Below, one piece after another: positions 23,724 through 64,000 of a stretch of 64,000 nt of DNA. The DNA is taken from the NCBI RefSeq assembly GCF_048128805.1, contig NC_136008.1:20626459-20690458 (forward strand). The letters run 5' to 3'. The notes beneath the pieces were generated by a model that did no database searches, was not told where the DNA came from, and saw only the letters and a list, made by a program, of their open reading frames with translations. This DNA comes from Centroberyx gerrardi (taxonomy: Eukaryota > Chordata > Actinopteri > Beryciformes > Berycidae). The translations under genes and the position numbers were made by a program. Numbering within the stretch: the stretch's first letter is position 1; each line of letters opens with the position of its first letter.

Positions 23724-24724
23724 CTACCTGCACCCGCACTGCTCCACCACCATGTCCTCGTACTGTTTGTACACCACGTTATTGCCCGAGTCGATGTACA
23801 GGATGCTGATGGGGCTGAGTTTGGTGGGGACGCAGCAGCTGGGCGGGGTGCTGTTGGGGTCCATGGAGTTCATGAGAGTCTGGATGATGGCGTGGTTGGT
23901 CGGCTCGAGGTGCGACCTGAGGGGGAAATCGCACACCCCCTCGCAGTGGTACGCCTCGTAATCCAGGGGCGCGATGATCCAGTCGTCCCAGCCCAGCTCT
24001 TTGAAATTCACATGCAGCGCCTTTTTGCTGCACCGGGACTTGGACTTTTTCCCGTGTCTCTTCCCGTGCCGGTTGCTCAGCGCGGTCCTCCGCCGCCGCC
24101 TCGGCCCCTCTCCCTTCACCCCCCTCACCGGCACCCCCGCCGCCGCCGCCGCCGCCGCCGCCGCCCCCCCCTCCTTCGCCGCCACCCCCGCCTCCCCCTC
24201 CTCCTTCTCGCCGACGGACCGCCGCGACTTGATCTTCTCCTTCATCTCGTTGAACAGGTTCTCCCTCTTCTTGGACCGGGTGTAGGCGACCAGGATGGCC
24301 TTCTCCTGCTGGGACCGGCCGCTCCGGTCCAGCCCCAGCTGCCTCAGGTCCACCTCCGTGTCTGATTTACCGAGCGTGACCCTCAGCTGGAAGCAGAGCT
24401 GGTTGCCCTGCTGCTGGTGATGATGGTGATGATGATGGTGGTGATGATGATGGTGGGTTTTAAACATTTCCCACACGTCCAACACCTCCCACCCGGGCTT
24501 TGCGGAGTCCAGCGGGTCCAGCGACCTGGAGTCCAGCAGCCTGTCGGAGCGGCAGGGGAAGAGCTGGATGTCGTAGAGGCCCGGCGTCTGCAGGGACGTC
24601 TGGAAATCCCCGGGCGCTTTCCTAAATATCCTTAATTCCGCTCCGACCAGCTCCTCTTTGTCTGAAAGGGTTGAGACATCAAACAGATACTTTTGTCTTC
24701 GCAGAGGAGAGTGCAAAAGATCGT
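23724..24724 (-). CDS. gdf6a: gdf6a coding exon 2 (prodomain remainder, furin site, mature ligand)
   Basis: The acceptor is TCCTTGCAG just upstream of 24724, and the exon opens [17 protein letters not shown] as in other GDF6 proteins. The His13 run is at 24417-24455 and the GCC-rich Ala run at about 24137-24165. The mature ligand of about 120 residues begins after RRRRR and ends [11 protein letters not shown] at a TAG stop. The local GC content is much higher than in the surrounding AT-rich DNA. The long plus-strand open frames over this exon are only its GC-rich antisense. Confidence 0.95.
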
Positions 24725-24846
24725 CTGCAAGGATAAAAAAAGAAAATAATTGCAGTCAGATTCACTTAGGGTGTACAGTGTTCAGAGGGATGGAGGGAGG
24801 GAGGGAGGGAGGGGGGACTCACATTCTCCCACAGAGGAGAGGCCTT

Positions 24847-27337: not shown

Positions 27338-29844
27338 CCAGCCTGCACCATCTGCGCTTTAATGAGTTACCCCAAGTGCCAAAAGTAATTTTCAGATTCG
27401 GGTTATTCTTTTCTGATCTTGCCTTTTCTGACCCCCAGGAAACGCCCTGCCTGGTTTTTACCTACATACTGTTAGGGTGAAAGCCAAAGAACTAGTAGAT
27501 CATGGATGCACTAAAAAGTGTCTCTGGAGGAATAATGCGTAAAAGACGCCAACTTTGTTTACTCTGCGCATCAAAGCCGCCCCCAATGTATTTCTTTCCT
27601 GGTGTATTTCAGCAAAGAATAATCTCAGCTGAGGTTCACTCTGCAGGTTAATGCAATACAACACTTTGGGGATGCTGGGAGGAATCCCAAAAGAAACCAA
27701 GGCACTGAGCTGAGAGAACGGGAAGAAAAATAATTTTCCGTAATTAAAGTGGCGGTCGCACAGGGAGGTTACGCAGTAAAATACTAACCACTTCATAGCG
27801 GAGGAAGTGCTCTTTCATTTTTTCCCCTCGTCGTTTTTGGTGATGTGCCATTATGGCTGAGCTGGGTCATTATGGGAGAATAGACAGTGTTTGATATGTT
27901 ATGACATGAACACTCAATTAGATCACCGAGTTCAAATACTCCAATCAGCGGTTCGATGCCAAGCAGCTCTCAGAGGGTCCAGCTAGGGGTCAGAGCCAGT
28001 GACACATCACATCAAAATCACAGGAGAAAGTGAGGCGTTTTTCCTATCAAATCAGTTCACGCTGCAAAAAATATCCATCCGAGCAAGCCATGTAGCCCCA
28101 TATTCACTCTTAAAATCTATGTTTTCTTACAATAAGCGAACAGTTCTGCCAATAGGGTGAGAAAACACCACTTGTTTCCAATGCAGTTTCATTTATTTTC
28201 CAGAAACGAGCGTCAATATCTTGAAACAAGGCAGAATGAGGCAGATTATCCCACTATGCATCAGGAAAATGACACTTCAGTCGACAAAATTCTTGAAACA
28301 AGTCGATTTGCAGTGGGAGCAGGTTAAGTCACCTCACCGCCTCGGTAGACTTTTTCACTTGCGTCAAGAAAAATAAGATTTTACGAGCCGACAGTGGATT
28401 AAACAACCTGTCAAGACGGATATTTTTTGCAGCGCGCAGTTTGTCTGTGAGAGCTGCAGCCTCGGAGTGTCGCGAACAGGAGGGAATGCAAACAAAGATA
28501 GCTTTTATTTCTCCTGCAAAGATTAACTCGGCTTATGTCCCCCTGTGTGTGTTCGATGTGTTTGTGTTTATCAGAGTGTGTTTGTCCTCTCAGGCCAGTC
28601 ACATCACTTGGTTACACATGTTAACTGACCCAAACACCTGCTTCTCACACCGACCCGCTCTGCCCCGGCCCCCGTCTTCCTTTGTCAGCCCAGTTGGCCA
28701 TACTGGGCACCATCATGGAAACAGCTTTCACTGTGATATACGTGCCAGTTTCAGCCATTCTTCACAGTTTGCACTTTAAAAGTCCCCGCTGATTCAGGCA
28801 CTGTTTGCGTTTGGAGATCAATGCAAAAATTTCAAAAATCAAGTAGCCTACTTTTATATTTCCCCCCCAAAAAAAGTTTCATTTCCATTCAAGTGGAACA
28901 CTAACTGTTCCCAACTAGTTTTTGGTGCAGCCTGCACCGACAGTGATTTACAACCTTCATTTAGAGAAACGCCTCAATTAGTGTTTTATTGTCGTGTTAC
29001 CTGGGGGTTAATTTAAGTGTAATATAACTTAATACTTTGCAAAAGTTACGTGCTTCGGCGGCTCTTTAAAATGCGTCCCATGTGTTCAAAGAGCTCCGAG
29101 TGCGCCAGCAAAATTTAATGCAGTCCTTATAAACAGAAAACAGCCCTGCAGCCTCCGAAATCGATGCATTTTTATTGAGGCTCAGTGCGTATGAGATATT
29201 GGACTTTTGTGCGCGTAAAACTGCGTGTTTGCATATTTTATATTTATTTCTCAAGCGTAAAAGTAGCCACCGGCAGCATCGACTCACAGTTTTTTTTAAA
29301 TCTCGTGGTTTTATAGGAATTATCTTTTAAACTAGATTTTCTCAAGATTTGCACAATATTTTGTCATGTTGTGGAGGAGAATATTAGGCTACTCTGATGA
29401 GAAAAACGGTGCCACACGCAAAAACAAGGCAACACAGTCATACAAGATTGAGTTGATGGAGCGGGCAGCCTACTGAAACCAACCTGTTCCTCTGTCCACA
29501 AAACTTGTTATGGTGTTGGCAGATTTAGAGGAGCGGAAAAAGCTTGCGTTTAGTCCGAGCTTCTCTGCAGCCGAGTATGTCCTGTATATAGAGAGCATGT
29601 AATCGTGGGGCACAACAGCGTCCTTTAGGTCTTCTCGGTGGTGGCCCACGATGGGATGCGAAGACGCGAAGATCTCTTTTAGAAATTTGGTTGACCTTTG
29701 TCCGTCCTGATGAGGGATCCTGGCTCCCTTGTTCCTCCTCGGCGCAGAGGGAGAGAGGATAGCAGCTGACTGGAAACACGGTATATTCCCAAGGAAAACG
29801 AGGAACAGGCCCAGATATAGCGTTACGACTCGAAATGCGTCCAT
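23724..29844 (-). CDS. gdf6a: Growth/differentiation factor 6 (BMP-family ligand), complete two-exon gene
   Basis: Secreted TGF-beta/BMP ligand. Family knowledge: GDF6 dimers signal through BMP receptors and Smad1/5/8, with roles in dorsal eye, skull and joint patterning. The coding parts are 29484-29844 and 23724-24724, joined inside an Asp codon (G|AC). Together they give 1362 nt, or 453 aa plus stop, close to the 455 aa of human GDF6. Seen in order: hydrophobic signal peptide (about residues 1-27), prodomain with an N-glycosylation site (LGLNASFF), a 13-His run followed by three Gln, an Ala9 run, a five-Arg furin-type site, then the mature domain. The mature part starts near [16 protein letters not shown] and carries the cystine-knot pattern (CSKK, CEGVC, SCC, CGCR). 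It is nearly identical to GDF6 rather than GDF5 or GDF7. The 'a' in the symbol is inferred from neighbouring sybu/ebag9 and the high mature-domain match. A gdf6b assignment is not excluded. Confidence 0.95.
24850..24908. repeat. (CT)n tract close to gdf6a exon 2
   Basis: 59 bp CT repeat, 126 bp upstream of exon 2 on the gene's own strand, where it reads as (GA)n. Confidence 0.95.
26188..26565. mobile_element. CACTGCAAAA-type MITE, copy 1 (gdf6a intron)
   Basis: Begins CACTGCAAAACAAATGTC and ends GATTTTTGCAGTG (inverted). The interior (AATGCAGTTTCACTTGTTTC, AATTCTTGAAAAACAAATTG) is shared with the copy at 28060-28434 in the same orientation. It carries no coding capacity, and the TIR style suggests hAT. 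Confidence 0.75.
27257..27336. repeat. Long (GA)n tract in the gdf6a intron
   Basis: About 80 bp of uninterrupted GA repeat on the plus strand, reading (CT)n in the transcript. Confidence 0.95.
28060..28434. mobile_element. CACTGCAAAA-type MITE, copy 2 (gdf6a intron)
   Basis: Left end CGCTGCAAAAAATATCC and right end GGATATTTTTTGCAGCG are perfect 17 bp inverted repeats. The interior aligns along its length with the 26188 copy (AATGCAGTTTCATTTATTTT, GAAACAAGGCAGAATGAGGC). Confidence 0.8.
29484..29844 (-). CDS. gdf6a: gdf6a coding exon 1 (signal peptide and N-terminal prodomain)
   Basis: Start chosen at the ATG read from 29844 ([20 protein letters not shown]), because it opens directly into a signal peptide; the frame stays open upstream but has no further ATG and is (CA)n-derived. 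The exon encodes 120 codons plus one base and ends ...FVDRGT with the donor GTTGGT. GDF5/6/7 genes share this single intron position in the prodomain. The segment [20 protein letters not shown] is typical of the prodomain. Confidence 0.93.
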
Positions 29845-30082
29845 GGCTGGAGAGTCACCGGGAGATGTTAAGAAACTCTTTCCCTCCCCACACACACACA
29901 CACGCACAATGAAGTCGGATTTCGGGCCGCTGGAGCCGGAGACGGTGTGCGCGTCAGGGTCGGAGAGCTGCTACTTTTGCGCTCCCCCTTGTCGCACCAG
30001 AAGAAGTGCGTTTTGCGCTCTGGACTTCACACAAGAGCGGAGACTGTTGGACCGACAGAAACACGCCCACATGGCCGCGCAG

Positions 30083-42100: not shown

Positions 42101-45100
42101 ATATATTGTGATCGGTCATTACTACCTCTTCATCATGTCTAACCTTTCAACATTTCTCCACTCTCATTTATTACACTTCTCTGCTCCACTCTCCACTTGA
42201 AAGAAGTGAGTACATTTTGGAGATTGGGAGGTTTGGGCTGTGGCAATGTGCAGCATAAAGTGAGTGGGCGGGTGGTTGGTTGGATTAGGCTCAGACTGTT
42301 TTATCATTTCCTCTCTTGCAGCTGCCTGGGATTATATATCGGTCATGATTTGGCTGTGGATGGGATTATTGAGGATTTAATAAAGCAAATGTCTGAATTT
42401 GGTACCCAGACAGTGACTCTACAGACTGCAGCTGAGTTGAAACTGAATTTGTGTGTGCATGCACCTTGGTTTGGGGGAGAGGAAAGGGTCATAAATATTT
42501 CATCATAACTGAATCAATAGATGAACTGAGCAGCCTGCAACTCTTGACTATTTGGGTCTGTCTTGCATTTCTGGCATGGTGCTGCTGGCTCCTTGTTACA
42601 TGGTGACAGAATATTTACTCCATCGGCTTTGTTTCTATGGCAGCTAAACCCTGCATAAGGATAAACCCAAAACTCCTCTCTTAGCCTTGTAAAATAAAAA
42701 ACAAATCCAGCCCACAGCTTTTTTTGACTTCTTTTTATGCAGCAGCACAATCGACCCTCTTTATCTTGTGTTTACAACATCCATAAATGCATTATAATCT
42801 CCGCTCTCGTCACTTAAGGACATTTTCATCCCTCAGTCAGCTCTCCTCTGCCTGGCTAGGTGTCATGTGACACGTTTCTCTCTCACTAGCTACCTTCTGC
42901 GGGGCTGTTTCTATTTCTGGCAGGGATGCAGAGCGCTCACATCAAAGCCTCAAGTATCCCAGGTTGCTAGGATATTGTGCTAGCGGTGAAGCCTGCTTGG
43001 AAGAGAGGGGCTTGCTGCTTTGCATATTGGCCAAATCCACCCACTCATCCTCAACAGGAAAAAAAAATCCTTTTATCAGTTCTCTTTGAACATCATAAAA
43101 TATATGATCACAGGACTTTCCCAAACATGCACAGGGCATTTGAATGTTAATGTGGTTAGTGTCTAGAATTTGTAAGACAAATTAATGCAAGTTGGGTTTT
43201 TTTTTTTTTTTTTTTACGATGGCGTTTCCTAGCTGACTCTGCTAGCATTTAGATAACCAAGCATTTTAGTTTATTTTTTGTCTCTAGTCTGCATGCTGGT
43301 AATCCTGTGTCAGACAGTAATTCCAGGCTTCAGAGAGCATCTGCCATGACAGCACTCTCTCAGCCAGACTGAACTAAGTAATTACCTTCTGCAGGCAGGG
43401 ATTCGTGTCAAATTGGGTTGTTTTTGTTTTTTGCTGTTGCTTCAAAATGGCTAGTTGGCGACTGTGATGAATACTGTTGGTCTTCAAGAAGTGTAAAGTT
43501 GGCCTTCCACCAAGAGAGCTTATCTAATGTTTGTGCATCATCATCTTTCTGCCCAGCAGAAGGGTGAGCCTGGGCCGCTACCACTCCTGTGGAGACAACC
43601 ACGGCATCAGACCCCCAAACCCCGAGCAGTACCTCACGCCTCTGCAGCAGAAGGAGGTGGCCATCCGGCACCTGAAGACCAAGCTGCTGGAGTCCGAGAA
43701 CAGAGTTCATGACAGGTTGGTTAATATTCTGCAACACAGGAGCACCTCTAACTGTATCTTTTTATGACTTTAAGGTAGGAGGGCGGTGGTTATACCAGGA
43801 GAAGGTGATACCATCGTTGTGACATAATCGCAGTATACTGCAGATGTTGTGGTCAGCTGTTTAAATCTTCTGAAGTGTGAACCCAATGTGAAAGTGCTAT
43901 TACGTAACATAACAAATCGGTGTGATGCTTCTAGAGTCATTTTTCACAGGGAACTTGCACTATATGTGACGACAACCCATCCAGCTTAGTAAAACCCGGT
44001 CCTTTAGGGATTTGTCTTTGCTACCCTTTTATCTTTGAGTAACTCTGGGCGTGTTCTTTCTCCCTTTTTTATATTTAGAGAGACCGAGATCGAGGAGCTG
44101 AAGTCCCAACTGGGCAGGATGAGGGAGGATTGGATCGAGGAGGAGTGCCACCGGGTGGAGGCTCAGCTGTCCCTGAAAGAGGCTCGCAAGGAGATCAAGC
44201 AGCTGCGTCAGGTGGTGGAAACCATGAAGAGCAGCCTGATGGAGAAGGACAAGGGAATACAGAAGTACTTCATTGACATCAACATCCAGAACCGGAAGCT
44301 GGAGTCCCTGCTGCAGAGCATGGAGCTTGCCCAGAGCGGCTCCAACCTCCAAGACGAACCCACCCTGGACTTCATCTGCGACTCCCCTGATGGCGGCGGG
44401 AAGAAGATGGAGGAAGAGGGAGGGCTGGAGCTGGGGGACCAGGCGGCGGAGGAGATGGCGGACAGCGGGCTGCTGGTAAACGACGAGATGGCCAACAGAG
44501 CGGACATTTTGGAGCAGGTCTTCATGTCCACTGCGGTGGATTTCAGTCAGGACTCTAGTGGCAAGCTGAGGGCAGGGGCAGAGCCTGGGCCTGGGGTGTC
44601 CGCGGTGCTGGAAGAGGGCGAGGATACATCTCCACCAAATATCGTTTCCACCACTGTCACCATCTCCTCCAGCACCTCCCCTCCGACAGAGCAGCCCGTC
44701 ACGGAAGACAAGGGAGTGCAGACCGACGTGATGTCCATGTCTCCGGACCTCCAGGCTCTGCTCCTCCAGCTGCTGAAGTTTCACGGGGGAACAGTGGGGG
44801 ACGCAGCGCTCTCGGCCTCCGGCGGTCTCCTGGGACTCCCAAACCTCCCCACCCCCACCCCCACCAATCTGACAGACTCGACGCCTAGCAGCCCCGCCCC
44901 CCCAGAGAGCCCCGACACCTCCACCGATTCCGGCATGTGCTGCTCGGAGCCTGCGGAGAGCCGAAGGTTCATGGAGGAGTTGGATTTTGGTGTCGGCGAG
45001 GAGGAGCCGTGCGTGCCGCCTGGATTGGCCGTGGTCGGCAAGCGCTACTGGAGCAACAGCTTCCTGGTCGATCTGGTTGCCGTCGCGGCGCCCGTGTTGC

Positions 45101-45237
45101 CTACGGTGGCCTGGCTGTACTCGCGGCACGGCGTGGACGGAAGTGCTCCGGTGTACAATATTGCTGCTCTCATCAGGGGCTGCTGCATCATGGGATTGCA
45201 CTCTCTTCGTCACGTCACTCACAGGCCAGATGTGTAA
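38263..45237 (+). CDS. sybu: Syntabulin (kinesin-1 adaptor), seven coding exons
   Basis: Family knowledge: syntabulin links syntaxin-bearing vesicles and mitochondria to kinesin-1 for microtubule transport. The zebrafish orthologue (tokkaebi) is a maternal gene for dorsal determination. Coding parts: 38286-38309, 38512-38698, 39405-39602, 41585-41681, 41885-42034, 43560-43715 and 44079-45237. They total 1971 nt, or 656 aa (human 663). The start ATG (MGPFQEYE) matches the human MGPL start. The first exon begins after an acceptor at 38262, so upstream noncoding exon(s) must exist. Recognisable blocks: SRIPRLVLHPF, SDSPFSEEE, DDTGCPTSQSVSPSKTPS, GSEADFSSSSSTGS, RPPNPEQYLTPLQQKEV. A long coiled coil covers about residues 244-357, and a hydrophobic C-terminal anchor about 597-618. 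Exon 6 has a tandem acceptor (CAGCAG). Confidence 0.93.
39884..39925 (-). repeat. Short reversed L2/V-SINE tail fragment in sybu intron 3
   Basis: Repeated TTACA units followed by TGTAATTTAGCAGACACTTT read, on the minus strand, as the (TGTAA)n end of the fish L2/V-SINE tail. Most of the element is missing. Confidence 0.45.
43197..43215. repeat. T19 homopolymer in sybu intron 5
   Basis: Pure T run. No gene signal nearby. Confidence 0.9.
44079..45237 (+). CDS. sybu: sybu terminal exon: coiled coil, acidic linker and membrane anchor
   Basis: Large last exon entered through acceptor TATATTTAG. It begins ETEIEELKSQLGRMREDWIE, the core of the syntabulin/syntaphilin coiled coil, and continues through EARKEIKQLRQVVETMKSSL and KGIQKYFIDINIQNRKLESL. 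A long acidic, Ser/Thr/Pro-rich, poorly conserved middle includes the KGVQTDV motif. It ends with the membrane-anchor region (SFLVDLVAVAAPVLPTVAWL) and a second hydrophobic stretch (VYNIAALIRGCCIMGLHSL) before the TAA stop. Confidence 0.95.
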
Positions 45238-56683: not shown

Positions 56684-59600
56684 GTGAGATGGATTTGATA
56701 AAAATGTTTTGTTAGAATATTATTTAGGGTGTGTTTAGATATGTTGGACTTTGAATATCTGAATTCCGGAGTGAATTACGAGGGAACTAGTTTGCTAACC
56801 TAGTTAACCTTTAGCCAGATCGCTACATTTAAGCTAACTTAGGTTAGATGGTAAACACAAGACATACTTCGTTATTCGGCTGGTTGTTAGAATTTGTTTG
56901 ATCGGCTAACTTAGTGATCTGAAACAAACTAATGTTACCGTTGACGTTATATTTGACCCAGCTAGCTAACCAAATATGAGTCATTGCACATTTACGCAGC
57001 ATAGCCGAGCTAACGTTAGTGTTACCACAATATTGTATTGTTGTAGTGTATTAGGACTAAATCACAGCCTGCAAACTGTCACTGTCATTCCCGTTGACAC
57101 ATCTAGCCCCATACGTACAGGAAGATCTTTATGCCACACTCCATTATAAATATGGCAATTTAATGATGTCTTGTTTTTCGCCAAATGTACATACCAGATA
57201 GAACATAGGCTACGTTAAGCTAATTTATTAAACGTTAGGGTCTACTGGTAAAGTCGGCAAACCGATATTCGCCAAGCAGCACTTTATTTTAATACAATTT
57301 CAGTTTTTAGAATTGTTTTACACTGCTCGCTACCTCTCTACCCCTGGCCCAAGTAGATGGTGGGAATAACGGTCTAAATAAAATAAATTTCATTGAAATA
57401 AGTGCTGCTTGGTGTGTTGAATTTATGCTGAATTGAAGAGAGGCTTCTAAGGACATGTAAAAGGTCTGTATACTAGGTATGTGCCTTTGCTAAGGAGACA
57501 TTAAACTGCCAGATTTTTGAAAGGAGTTTTGGTGTGACTTTCTCTCCATGCAAAAGAGGGCACATATCTGGGCTAACTCATATGGTGTACCTTCACCTAT
57601 CCCTCAATTTCAGATGGAGGAAGAGGAGCATACAGACAGAAAGCAGCAACTTGCCATGCTTTATCAAAAGCTCAACAAAATTAAAAAGTATCTCAACGAA
57701 GGTAAGTGTTTATCCAATTGTCCTCCTGTCATTGTGAGATGAAAATACATCAGTCTGTTTTTTTTTTGGTTTGTTTTTTTTTTTTTTTTTATTTGTCAGT
57801 ATGGGATAAACTGATCGTAATACCTCACACTTTTGTTACAGATGACACCGACAATATTAACCAGGTCATCGGCTCAAACTCTCCCGAAACTTGTCTGACA
57901 TATCTGATGGACCTGGAGAAGAAAGGTGACCCTCACCTGGATCGTAACCATCTCACCAGGCTCATGGACTTTTATACCAGAGTGTTCTCAAATATGCCAT
58001 TGGGAAAGCACTGTCAAAATGAGAGCTATGCCAGGATGTTGGTCAGATTTGCAGAGCTGAAAGCGTGAGTAGCTATAATGTTTAGCCTACTCTTTCAAGA
58101 CCTTCTTTAACCTCTTTCCGCCTCCGATTGCATCAGTCGATTGGGTAGGCCTGAAGCTGAAATAATCAATCAACTTAAGTCATTTTGATATGCTTATCAA
58201 TTGACAGCTTGGTGGATATAAAGCCTTTTTTCCCCCTTTTTTTTCTTCTACTAGAATCCAGGATGTCAATGAGGCAGAAGCCAACTTCAATGTGGCAAGA
58301 TCTCACAGCCAGAATTTTGCATTTGTCCACATTGCACATGCACAGTTTGAGCATTCTCAAGGTAGAGAGAGATGCCTTTTGTTGCTCTCGAAAATATGAA
58401 CAAATATATAAAGACTATAACTCATGACTTGAGTTATTATGTGTGATGTTTCAGTGTCTGCTGTCTCATCTTACCAGGCAACACAAAGAGAGCCATTTAC
58501 ATTTTGCAGAGGGCAATTGAACTGGATGCCAAACCGAAAGAAGTGCTGGAGGCTGCCTTACAAAGCCTGCAGACAGGAAAAGCACAACTTGTCTGTTCTG
58601 AGGATAAGGAAAATGTACCAGGTCAGTATTTATTATGTTTGACACCATGGCATAAAACACAGTTGACCCACTTAATTGATGATGTACAATGAATTAGTTC
58701 TGAAAATCACTGTTATAACCAAAAAATGTTATCCTTGTTCTTTTGTTCGTAGTATGCTTTTCCCAACTGATTTCCATACTTTCTTATGTTTTCTCTTCAC
58801 CAGTATTACCCAACAATAATTTGCACGATTCTGCCAAACATGGCTCAGAATTCCAAAAGGTCTGCAAGAACTCAGACGGGACAGGCGACTTACAGCTCCC
58901 CACTATTTTTGGTTCAGGGTAAGAATAAAACAAGTGCTTTCAATTTTAACCAGGTATTTATTTTGTTCTAAAACATAAAATCTTACATCCATCCCTCTTC
59001 TCCGGCCCTCAGGACAGAGCCCCTGAGTGGATCATCAGATGACCAGCTGCCAGGATGGAGGTCTGGATCTCAGTGCAAGAGAGCTGTTGGCTTGGTGAGA
59101 GTTGGATTTCATCCTGCCAGTATTTTTTCCCTATACTTGGCCAAAGGGTAGATGCAACTGATTACTGATCAGTCTTTGAAGTTGTGCTCTGACCTTTTGC
59201 TTTCCAGCCAGGGAGAGTTCCCATAGTTTCCCTCTCTATCCCAGAAATGAATGTTGACGACAGCGATGGGATACCCTCAAAGAAAAGTGATACATTCTTG
59301 TCCAGGTAATTATGTAGGACGGGGATTTCCACATTTTTTCATGACAAGGACCCACAGATAATTAGGCATTCGACCATGAACTTCTATATTATTTTGTCCT
59401 GAGGAATGGCATCTGAGAAGATTTTTGTTGCTAGCTATGGCTTTGTACATATGACATAACTGTCTGTACTGGAGGTGGGGAGGTAGCAGTAGGTATACTG
59501 AAACCTAGGATGAAAATAGTCATCACTGATGGAGGACACACACTTTTATGTTGTCTCAAACTGCTTAATATACTTTGCATTGTAATTCCTGAGTATATCA

Positions 59601-62600
59601 CTCCACTGTGTAATTGAAAGTATTGTAATGCCTTTTTCATGGCATTGCATTGTTGTTACCTAAGTGGAATTTTAGTTGTGACTGTTTGTAGTTATGTAGG
59701 CCACATTATGAGTCTTAACTGTTTCATTTTGTTTCAGGCAAACATCTGGTTCAAGTACCAGCTCAATGTTTGCTTTATCGTCCTCCAAGAAAACTGCTGT
59801 TGATGGAGATTTCCTCAGTCTTAAAGTGAGTAAAAAGTGAGCTTGTTTTTGTGGTTACTGGTTTTGGTGTCTAGTTGGCCAAAGAAATATTAAAGGAACA
59901 CTTCACAATTTTTTAACCTTATCTCCATATATTGGTCCTCACTAATACATGCAAATTCAAAAAGATTTTTGAATTTTGGGACTTCCCACAGCCCGTCTCC
60001 AAGACACAGCAAGTAGACAGACATGATGCTGTATTAGTGAGGACCAATATACGGAGATATGGTTAAAAAATAGCAAAGTGTTTCTTTAAATCTGTCTTTT
60101 GCATTGCTGTGTTCCCAGCCAACAATTACCAGTCCAATGCCTCGCCCCTGGGAGGACCAGACAACGGTGGACTCCACCACCACACTCCTTTACAGGCAGG
60201 ACAGGAGGGACACCTCTAGGATGGAAGGTACTATATCATCGAGAGAGTATGGCACACCGTACATCCAGCGCTGTGTAGTATTTAGACATTCTTACTGCAG
60301 AGCTGTGTGGACAATGGGACATTTACAGTAATTTTGTGTCGTTTTGATAAGTTTTGTTTTTCCCTGGCAGATACAACTTACAATTTCTACCAGATCATCA
60401 ATTCAAATTCCCCCGAGTCGTGTCGGACATATCTGCTGAACCTGGAGAAGAGAGGCAACCCTCACACAGACGTGAACCTCCTTACTAAGCTAAAGGACTG
60501 CTATTCTAAAGTCTTCTCCAGAATGCCAATAGGAAAATACAGCAAGAACGAGAGCTACGCCAGAATACTGGTCAGATATGCTGAACTCAAGGGGTGAGTG
60601 TGGATGGAAATATCTACATTATAGTAAAGGCATTTTGGGATGGGTTTGTGGAGGAAGTATCAATTCTAGGTGTGGTATTGATGGTATGGGGGTGACTAGT
60701 GCCTGAACTGGTATACTATATCCATTAAAGGTAAAAATGCATGGCATGTATTCATACATAGCCTCAGGTATACAAGTGTGTGTCACTGGATGTATTGGCC
60801 ATCTGATCTTGTTCTGTAGGGTCAAAGAATATGCGTGCTATCCTGTAACCCTGACCAAGGCTGTTGCAGCCAGAACATGTTGGCTTTTAACATCAAAGCG
60901 TTGTCAGTTGTTCTCTAAGAGTAGCTGCTTTTTTTTCATTCTTCTGTAGGATTGAAGACCCAGACGAAGCACAGGACCACTTCATAGTTGCAAGATCCAA
61001 CTGCAAAGGCTTTGCCTTTGTCCACGTGGCACACGCCCAGTTCGAGGTCTCTCAAGGTATACTTCTCCATATACAGTATTATTATTTATTGTAGTTGTTT
61101 TACAGAAACCTGATATGTTGAATAGATACACTCAGCACATTTCGTATTTGTCAGTTAAAGCTCCCGAGCTAGTAATTCTGTGTGTCTTTCTTAACGGTGT
61201 TCTTAAATGCATTACCGTATACATTTATTTACAGTCATTTGGCAATAGTGACAGCAGGTGCTGTCACAACAGGCCATCAACAATTTAAAGATGTGCACGT
61301 CCAAATGCTCCTCCACTTGTCTAGACAGCCCTTGTGTAAAATCAGTATTTTTTAAAATGCCAGGATGTTATACTGTTTTTTTTTTAGTTTATATGATTAG
61401 ACATTGACAAAATGCTATCCAAGGAATAGTTTAAAAAAACTACTCATAATGTAGTGCATAACTGTCAAATTAACCATCATAATCAGAGAAAGTTACAACA
61501 ATGTGACACAAGTCGTGTATCAACATTATGTCCTCAGCATGGTTTAAATGTAGTATATTTCAATTGGCATGTTTACAATATAATTATCAGGATATAACAC
61601 AGTTAATTTAGATGATACTTACCGCCAGAATTGCATATTGGCAGTATTTAGACACAGTGACTATTTTTGCTGTGAGCAGGACAAGAAATGTGCATTTTAT
61701 AGGAGCATGGTTGTGTAAATCTTGTGTAAATCTCTCACTTTTCTTCCTGGTTCCCCTTAAGGTAATGTGAACAAAGCAACTTCAATTCTACACAAAGCCC
61801 AGGCCTTAAATGCTAGGCCAGGCAAGGTGCTGGAGGTGGCCATGCGTAACCTTAAAGCTGGGGAAAAACAGCTGGTACCCACCGAGGAGGAGGAGTGCTC
61901 CCCAGGTAGAGTTCAGAGTCAGCTTCCTAATGGTATCAAACTACTGACCGTATGTCTGATTCATTCTCTAGGTCAAACTAGTGGGTGTAGTTAGTCAATT
62001 TTTATAACCATCTTTCTTTCTTCTAGATTTGCAGAGCCATGGTCCACGAAGGGTGGCAACTTGTGGGGGGAAACAGGAGTTGCAGATTCCTGCTCGGGTG
62101 TCTGTGAACCGGTCTGTGGAGCAGCCTAAACCTGCCAGCAAGGAGCCTTTATCGGCGTGGAAGATGCCAGCTCTTGTTGGCCGGCATTTTTCTCCAGAGG
62201 TTAGATACATTATTTTGGGGTTTCAGTCAAAAAAAACTGTCTTGCTAGCTGTGTTTCCAACTGTTAAATGAATTTCAAGCAAACTTTTGAAATGTCGTAA
62301 ACAAAAGTGAATTAGGTGAATTTCCATCAGCTGGGTTGAAGCATCCATGAGAAAAATGGAATGGAGTCTTTTATTAGTAGTATTTGGCAAGCTGTTATAG
62401 TTCTTATCTGTCAGTTAATGTTGGACATATTTAATGCGACTAATGGCCAAACAACCACGACGGGCAACCTTATACATGGGAGATACAGTCAGCAGGTATA
62501 ATATTTCATGGTATTAGAGTGACACTTGAGAACTCTTGAACAGTTGTGCAATGAGATCGAACCAAGCCTGCATCATTATTTATTCAACAAATGTGGTTCA

Positions 62601-64000
62601 GTCAGAATTTATCGGATAATTTCTTTATTGATAAAAAACTTTTCCTCTTTTTAGCAACATTGAGGAAATTTGATCAAAATTTGCCGTTTCCATTCCAAAC
62701 CCACCTACTGTTTGTTGTTCCTCCTACTGTTTTTATGACCATTTCAAGTCATTTCTACAATTAAACTGATCCTATGTATTTTAGTCTCCCAACCATACCC
62801 CAGTGTTCACTAAATAATTTTCTTCCTAGGATAAACACACTACACCTCCTGACCCTCGACCTGTTCCCCGTCTGCTGGACTCCCTCCCCACTCCATCCCT
62901 CCCTCTTCCATCCAGACTGAACCCACCTATGGTCTGCCAGACGCCCAACAACTACAAAAATCCCTGTGCTAACAGGTAACATCTTGACTTGTGTCTGCAG
63001 GTCCTGAAAAAGCTTTAAAATCAAGGTTGTAGAAGTTGTTGCATACAGGCATTTTGAGTCTTTAATTCACTTTTTCCGGTGATGCCTATTTGAAATAAAT
63101 AGTTGTCTGAACAGAAACTTTACTCTGTGGGTTAAGTTTGGTTATCTAGTTGGGAAAGTTAGGGGAGTTACCTAGTTTCCATCTTTTTCTTTCTCCCCCT
63201 CAGTTTTATCACCCCGGTTGTAAAGAGAGACCCTGAATCAGCTTCTTCTGCCGCACACAGAGCCGGACCCACCCAGCAACCCTGCACACCTCTAAACCAA
63301 GTGTCCTACTTCCAAACCCCACAGGTACCAGATGCCCTGTGCCTTTGCAGTCATTGAATACATTGCTTTTATTTTGTGGACTCAGAAGACACAATAGAGC
63401 TGGAACGTCACATGGTACTGTGAAAAATATTATTCCCATGTCACCAACCACCTGATGTTATTCTATAGTGGATGACTTCCTAACAGTATCAAGAAGACTA
63501 AGTGACTTCTACTGGATTTGAAACATTGTGTCCATTGTGTAACTGTAATTGTCATTGATTATGAATATTTCAACCTCCGTATAGAGAAGTAAGCTTTTTC
63601 ACCGTCAGGTAGGGATGTTTCCATCACAGCTACTACAATACCCATAAGCCCAGCTAGCTTCTTATCAGTGTAAGTAAGTGTTAGCAGAGGCGAAAACCAT
63701 TATAAATCTGGACATGTACAGCAGTGTAGCTTGTCATGCTACATTATATGCTCTGCAGAGGCTCGATAATGAACAAATTAGCCAGGCTTGTCATGTCAAG
63801 CCAAAAATAACATAACGGCTTGCAAACTGGCACAAAACTTTGCAGCATTGTTGTGAGTTTTGACCACTGTGTCTGTGGCTTCTTCCAGCCGACTAGTAAA
63901 CATTTAAACACACTGTGGCACAAAATTCTGGAACTTGTACCTTTTGACTTTTTTTGCGTTTTTCTTTCAGAAATATAAACACGCAAATGCATTTAGTTTA
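56681..64000 (+). CDS. ttk: TTK/Mps1 dual-specificity kinase, 5' part (kinase domain beyond window), with duplicated TPR module
   Basis: Family knowledge: kinetochore kinase of the spindle assembly checkpoint. Coding parts: ATG only at 56681-56683 (exon 1), then 57614-57701, 57842-58064, 58255-58361, 58478-58621, 58804-58918, 59013-59094, 59208-59305, 59738-59825, 60119-60227, 60371-60593, 60950-61056, 61762-61905, 62027-62199, 62830-62975 and 63204-63324. From the exon 2 ATG they give 1968 nt, exactly 656 codons with no stop. TTK is recognised from KNESYARILVRYAELKG, NCKGFAFVHVAHAQFE, GRVP, RQTS and FITPVVK, each with a human TTK counterpart. TPR block A covers about residues 30-187 and block B about 352-509. 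The start may be exon 1 ATG or the adjoining exon 2 ATG. The gene is cut off by the window end before the kinase domain. Confidence 0.92.
57241..57560 (+). repeat. Unclassified dispersed repeat, copy 3 (ttk intron 1)
   Basis: Matches copy 1 through CTACTGGTAAA, TTGAAATAAGTGCTGCTTGG, GACATTAAACTGCCAG and TTTTGGTGTGACTTTCTCTC. It ends about 54 bp before ttk exon 2, so it probably lies close to the branch-point region. Confidence 0.65.
57842..58621 (+). other. ttk: ttk TPR module copy A (exons 3, 4, 5)
   Basis: Exons of 223, 107 and 144 nt. Exon 3 encodes NSPETCLTYLMDLEKKGDP and QNESYARMLVRFAELKA, exon 4 IQDVNEAEANFNVARSHSQN and FAFVHIAHAQFEHSQ, exon 5 GNTKRAIYILQRAIELDAKP. This corresponds to the human N-terminal TPR domain, which supports kinetochore localisation and dimerisation. 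Copy A sits in the usual N-terminal place. It departs from human more than copy B in the second exon, which has SHSQN where human and copy B have an N-C-K core. Confidence 0.93.
59312..59560. mobile_element. hAT-like relic in ttk intron 8, same family as 30083
   Basis: Begins GACGGGGATTTCCACATTTT, TCATGACAAGGACCCAC, then TTTTTGTTGCTAGC and AACTGTCTGTACTGGAGG, paralleling the 30083 element in the same order. The right end is unclear. Confidence 0.45.
59890..60089. mobile_element. ttk: 200 bp hairpin MITE flanked by TTAA, in ttk intron 9
   Basis: Bounded by TTAA at 59890-59893 and 60086-60089. The first about 60 bp (AGGAACACTTCACAATTTTT ... CTCCATATATTGGTCCTCAC) is the inverted complement of the last about 60 bp with few mismatches, leaving a short loop. 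It ends 29 bp before exon 10. Confidence 0.8.
60371..61905 (+). other. ttk: ttk TPR module copy B (exons 11, 12, 13)
   Basis: Exons of 223, 107 and 144 nt, the same lengths and phases as exons 3-5. Exon 11 encodes NSPESCRTYLLNLEKRGNP and KNESYARILVRYAELKG, exon 12 IEDPDEAQDHFIVARSNCKG and FAFVHVAHAQFEVSQ, exon 13 GNVNKATSILHKAQALNARP. By eye exon 11 matches exon 3 at about 45 of 71 residues. Several positions (DPDEA, NCK, SQGNV, RNL) are closer to human TTK than copy A is. Frames are intact and all splice sites are GT-AG, so the copy looks functional. Confidence 0.93.
62027..63324 (+). other. ttk: ttk exons 14-16: linker before the kinase domain
   Basis: Exons 62027-62199, 62830-62975 and 63204-63324 encode a Pro-rich, basic, low-complexity linker. 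CQTPNNYKNPCANSFITPVV aligns with the human CKTP...RTPVVK region shortly before the kinase domain. The downstream frame continues in phase 0 past 63324. Confidence 0.85.
63971..64000 (+). CDS. ttk: Possible next ttk exon at window edge
   Basis: A polypyrimidine tract and TTTCAG at 63964-63970 precede an open phase-0 frame (KYKHANAFSL). This phase would continue exon 16. Only 30 nt are visible and I see no clear match to human TTK, so it may be a chance acceptor. Confidence 0.3.

Follow-up and report, generated by a model that had tools for sequence, protein, structure and literature searches.

The 64,000-nucleotide window of the Centroberyx gerrardi genome studied here (assembly GCF_048128805.1, contig NC_136008.1, forward-strand positions 20,626,459 to 20,690,458; positions below are counted from its first letter) contains a ttk/Mps1 gene on the + strand, from 57614 onward. 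The question raised by this locus is whether the encoded kinase carries two tetratricopeptide repeat (TPR) modules in one chain. Human MPS1 possesses one TPR domain, in which a seventh helix adds to three TPRs and which follows an N-terminal extension (NTE) of about 60 residues (PMC6119859). The predicted fish protein does not have the one-TPR-per-chain layout of the human type, since two modules lie in one open frame. Judged from the sequence, this two-module layout departs from the human one and is a real, old, and constrained internal duplication.

Splice signals and the reading frame guided the manual placement of the ttk exon boundaries. Within the window, 15 coding exons (numbered 2–16) were recognized; every intron is of the GT-AG type, and the exons form one frame of 656 residues. 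Exons 3, 4, and 5 (57842..58064, 58255..58361, and 58478..58621; + strand) encode the first, middle, and last parts of TPR module 1, while exons 11, 12, and 13 (60371..60593, 60950..61056, and 61762..61905; + strand) encode the corresponding parts of module 2. In this hand-set model, the exons of both triplets measure 223, 107, and 144 nt, start in phases 1, 2, and 1, and end in phase 1. A preliminary description of this stretch had already listed these equal sizes and phases, together with the open frames and proper splice sites of both copies, and had termed the arrangement a tandem duplication. The duplication stands but the adjacency does not: exons 6–10 separate the modules, so that the copy is an internal, non-adjacent cassette.

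Alignment of the two triplets, as proposed in that description, was gap-free and revealed 90 identical residues among 158. Exon 11 shares 47 of 74 residues with exon 3 (an earlier count by eye had given roughly 45 of 71); the values for the other exon pairs are 22/36 (exons 4 and 12) and 21/48 (exons 5 and 13). Chance similarity can be ruled out, as the BLOSUM62 score of this alignment was 465 compared to a maximum of 52 among 500 shuffles. At the DNA level, the repeat finder paired exons 3 and 11 (72% over 232 nt) and exons 4 and 12 (73% over 94 nt) and gave no pair for exons 5 and 13.

Both modules are homologous to the single human TPR module and match its structures (PDB 4h7x, 4h7y, and 4b94) along almost the whole length. 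The PDB search with 4h7x as the target gave 121.7 bits (E 2.6e-34) for module 1 and 140.6 bits (E 3.2e-40) for module 2. All Pfam matches of the N-terminal part and of the modules were under the cut-off, and NCBIfam returned three weak matches. The BUB1/BUBR1 family (PF08311) scored 25.6 bits with the 656-residue N-terminal part, 13.1 bits with module 1, and 19.2 bits with module 2, all below the Pfam cut-off of 31.4; the HAT-repeat family PF23241 reached 28.5 bits with the 656-residue part, also under its cut-off. A BUB1 chain in the PDB was matched by module 1 with E 0.21 and by module 2 not at all at E up to 1. The TPR domains of BUB1/BUBR1 and Mps1 are described as structurally highly similar, and their shared ancestry is mentioned as unpublished data (PMC6119859).

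When module 2 was searched against the whole genome of 778,876,752 bases, six matches were obtained at E up to 1, which are the six exons of both modules; this search scores best candidates only, and a very diverged further copy could escape it. One ttk locus was found in this way. No relatives were detected in viral contigs (10 pattern hits, none of them confirmed).

The introns and the substitution pattern speak about the reality and age of the second copy. Corresponding introns differ in length (140/143, 190/356, 116/705, and 182/121 nt), and none of them gave a BLAST match better than E 0.10. The proportion of replacement differences between the modules (pN) was 0.240 and that of silent differences (pS) 0.771, with pN/pS in the range of 0.23–0.40 in 500 bootstraps; the silent sites are saturated, pS being too high for a corrected dS, and the pairwise ratio covers both copies jointly. 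A Fisher test on rounded counts separated replacement from silent differences (p 4e-22). The saturation of silent sites, the constraint on replacement sites, and the dissimilar introns thus indicate an old duplication and not an error of the assembly. The view that the second triplet is an assembly error, or a dead leftover outside the mRNA, retains a negligible probability on these grounds and in light of the intact frame, splice sites, and phases. In particular, the sequence makes a dead leftover very unlikely.

In a crude neutral simulation, only 2 of 2000 copies stayed open at a distance of 1.5, and the top identity among all copies was 0.178 compared to the 0.57 observed. At distances of 0.3, 0.6, and 1.0, open frames were kept in 27, 7, and 6 of 2000 copies, with mean identities of 0.519, 0.300, and 0.168, respectively. 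Faster decay of one of the modules was also considered. In the Tajima relative-rate test against the human sequence, module 1 had 19 changes of its own and module 2 had 14 (chi-square 0.76). This difference is not significant; therefore, neither copy stands out as freely decaying.

When did the duplication occur? Kimura-type distances over 146 columns were 0.62 between the modules, 0.89 between module 1 and human, and 0.80 between module 2 and human. The ratio of the inter-module distance to the mean distance to human was 0.73 (95% range 0.54–0.96), and in 4622 of 5000 bootstraps no distance was smaller than that between the modules. In length, both fish modules differ from human by the same one residue, and they agree against human in 30 columns, while the other two pairings agree in 14 and 19. 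These values suggest that the duplication is later than the fish–tetrapod split, yet lies deep within ray-finned fish. This dating is a clock argument based on three sequences, with no rooted tree, and is the least secure element in the evolutionary argument. A duplication older than the split of ray-finned fish and tetrapods, followed by loss of the second module on the human line, would accommodate the 378 of 5000 bootstraps in which the inter-module distance was not the smallest, and distances taken without a rooted tree leave room for it. The distance ratio, the shared length difference, and the excess of columns in which the modules agree against human make this older origin quite improbable.

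Each module comprises 474 nt, with phase 1 at its start and its end; the end of exon 10 and the start of exon 14 are in phase 1 as well. Being bounded by phase 1 at both ends, the module could be inserted into the phase-1 intron 10 with the frame intact, and the duplication was tolerated because the module is phase-symmetric. Comparison of exons 6–10 with exons 14–16 did not reveal a larger duplicated block: the best E value was 1.1, which falls inside the spread obtained with 100 shuffles (from 0.014 upward, with a median of 5.3). The same exons had just two weak matches, with E 0.50 and 6.6, to the region 60594–62830. Since no clear trace of a larger block is present, the copying of a three-exon cassette and the copying of a larger block with later loss are indistinguishable.

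The same symmetry makes each module skippable. Dropping exons 11–13 or exons 3–5 leaves the frame open to its end and yields 847 residues either way; the length of human TTK is 857 residues. Loss of exon 3, 4, 11, or 12 singly, or of exons 12 and 13 together, shifts the frame. One could read this as a splice-controlled cassette, with module 2 (or 1) being included in some tissues or stages, for example in the germ line or early embryo, so that kinases with one and with two TPR modules would be made. We consider such regulation unlikely: phase symmetry by itself accounts for a tolerated duplication, and the frame is likewise kept upon loss of exon 5 or 13 singly or of exons 11 and 12 together.

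The remaining parts of the gene are single-copy or lie outside the window. Exon 2 (57614..57701; + strand), the first coding exon of the model, with GT-AG boundaries and an open frame, encodes the N-terminal extension and stands outside the duplication. Part of it resembles human NTE helix-1 by eye. A tblastn search with the human protein gave no match in exon 2, and the PDB search yielded no chain covering the helix-1-like stretch. Module 2 carries about 10 residues ahead of its TPRs, which, again by eye, match the NTE helix-2 region. Twenty-nine residues stand ahead of module 1, and module 2 starts 322 residues past the start of module 1. Upstream of exon 2, at about 56680, an ATG lies immediately 5' of a GT donor-like site; if it ends exon 1, the protein start moves one residue earlier, in frame.

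The inter-module linker is encoded by exons 6–10 (58804–58918, 59013–59094, 59208–59305, 59738–59825, and 60119–60227; + strand), defined by splice signals and frame, which we assume to include the middle region because of a by-eye likeness to the human sequence. Two features were noted in the introns of this gene. Intron 9 contains an inverted repeat (59890–60089) with 60-nt arms that are 90% complementary and spaced by 80 nt, resembling a small hairpin or an element of the miniature inverted-repeat transposable element (MITE) type. In intron 11, positions 60809–60828 closely resemble, at 80% over 20 nt, the acceptor region of exon 12, located 130 nt downstream, and may represent a decoy acceptor. 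Exons 14–16 (62027–62199, 62830–62975, and 63204–63324; + strand), also placed by splice signals and frame, form the linker toward the kinase domain. The frame continues past the end of the window through exons 17–25 (window-equivalent positions 64217–67020; + strand) and closes after exon 25, giving a protein of 1005 residues. Its kinase part matches human TTK (2zmc) with E 1.2e-149, and the catalytic motifs AVKHVN, HSDLKPANF, DFGIAN, and QVGTLNYMPPEAI are all present. By the sequence of its kinase and TPR parts, the gene is a member of the Mps1/TTK family.

Conservation is not uniform along the modules. Columns invariant among module 1, module 2, and human amount to 29 of 53 in the stretch NESYAR...SQGN, which was picked only after viewing the alignment, as compared to 25 of 93 elsewhere (Fisher p 0.0012). 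Ahead of this stretch, 15 of 48 columns are common to the two fish copies only and 14 of 48 to all three sequences. The exact LXXLL motif is kept in neither fish module, while the compared human stretch has one; in human, this motif has been linked to nuclear import (PMC4373099). A division of labour between the modules, in which one docks or restrains the NTE and the other serves self-association, nuclear import, or centrosome targeting, would fit the 68 of 158 residues at which they differ and the higher score of module 2 with the human structure, though it is module 1 that adjoins the NTE. This reading appears rather doubtful to us, as the rates of the two copies do not differ significantly, the same core is invariant in both and suggests a shared constraint, and the absence of an exact LXXLL speaks against a role in nuclear import.

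In human cells, the NTE, the TPR, and the following region of Mps1 each add to kinetochore docking, and none of them is visible there alone; the TPR is pulled down by the Ndc80 complex (Ndc80C), and docking becomes stronger with every module that is added (PMC7493027). Residues 1–30 are critical for docking, and induced dimerization of the N-terminal 300 residues raises localization, while natural Mps1 dimerization is mainly C-terminal, the N-terminal part being weak (PMC7493027). An older review states that the TPRs promote homodimers (PMC3513839). A further review describes the dimerization evidence as conflicting and reports no TPR ligand identified by its date; the same source regards the TPR domain as ancient, kept in vertebrates, and lost in many other lineages (PMC6119859).

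The explanation we favour, to which we assign as a whole a probability of roughly 55%, is a working ttk gene with an old copy of the TPR cassette, in which both modules are part of the protein, both appear to be retained under purifying selection, and the second (TPR2) would add a contact to the Ndc80 complex. A phase-symmetric three-exon cassette, comprising the TPR module and about 10 residues before it, would have been copied between exons 10 and 14, into an intron of phase 1. This would have happened long ago, probably in the ray-finned lineage, with both copies retained. A protein carrying both modules would be made, its likely order being N-terminal helix, TPR1, middle region, TPR2, and kinase. 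From the human work, we infer every step of the functional part, that is, of kinetochore docking and avidity. Past the middle region, TPR2 may bind the Hec1/Nuf2 heads of the Ndc80 complex as an additional weak contact, which would provide more contact sites per chain at unattached kinetochores and hence higher avidity. The N-terminal helix that dominates human docking would remain single, beside TPR1. Of the two effects suggested in the preliminary description, a changed affinity for kinetochores and intramolecular pairing, the latter is the weaker one because the literature is split on TPR-driven dimerization.

Several points weigh against this explanation. The two-module product is predicted from the gene model, in which either module is skippable in frame, and the sequence comparison took in only this fish and human. 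With a neutral distance as low as 0.3, the simulation gave a mean identity of 0.519, close to the observed 0.57; the only arguments against so low a distance are the saturation of the silent sites and the open frame (kept in 27 of 2000 copies at that distance). Module 2 lacks NTE helix-1, and human Mps1 without residues 1–30 is nearly invisible at kinetochores (PMC7493027). As told in the same paper, one group detected no direct binding of the TPR to Ndc80C, and, in the view of the Kops group, the TPR inhibits the N-terminal extension (PMC7493027). Were the TPR to restrain the NTE in this way, docking could become weaker with a second copy.

Other genes of the window include a TGF-beta ligand at 23727–24755 (- strand; Pfam TGF_beta, 126.5 bits) and an open frame without Pfam match at 29473–29970 (- strand), which we assume to be joined to the former as one gdf6-like gene. 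A syntaphilin-family gene (Pfam, 297.1 bits) is located at 44008–45234 (+ strand). Elsewhere in the genome, twelve kinase-domain matches of identical score occur at a constant step of 4282 bases in contig C23 (10422155–10470195), which represents either a kinase gene recently amplified in tandem or a feature of the assembly. Ten kinase-domain matches, all of 137.3 bits and with open frames of 335 residues, are distributed over contigs C2, C7, C15, C21, C23, C24, and C47. They point to a kinase gene present in many dispersed copies, which a mobile element may have spread.

Zebrafish Ttk comprises about 980 residues. In the zebrafish mutant nightcap, isoleucine 843 of the kinase domain is reported to be changed; the 1005-residue protein predicted here has the PPEAI isoleucine at position 844. 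If these zebrafish values hold, zebrafish shares the two-module layout, which has then long been present in public databases. The string I843K occurred in no paper of the literature searched. A second TPR in Mps1, or a gain of a TPR, was not mentioned among the titles and abstract starts listed in this search, the scope of which mostly excluded subscription papers. A supplementary alignment that includes zebrafish Mps1 is cited in PMC4373099. That a two-TPR Mps1 is fixed across much of the ray-finned fish, zebrafish included, and that TPR2 is an independent Ndc80 receptor past the middle region, with built-in bivalency replacing dimerization as the way to a high kinetochore affinity, is a tentative proposal which we hold to be less probable than its negation by a clear measure.

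The role of the Mps1 TPR is disputed: it has been regarded as contacting Ndc80 directly, as holding back the N-terminal extension, or as making dimers. A vertebrate with two constrained TPR copies per chain offers a natural and experimentally tractable test of this role. If zebrafish shares the second module, what has been concluded from mps1 mutants and drug tests in zebrafish would concern a protein built unlike the human one. Should the two-TPR layout with its bivalency prove to be fixed, the checkpoints of fish would be switched on and off by other rules than those of human.

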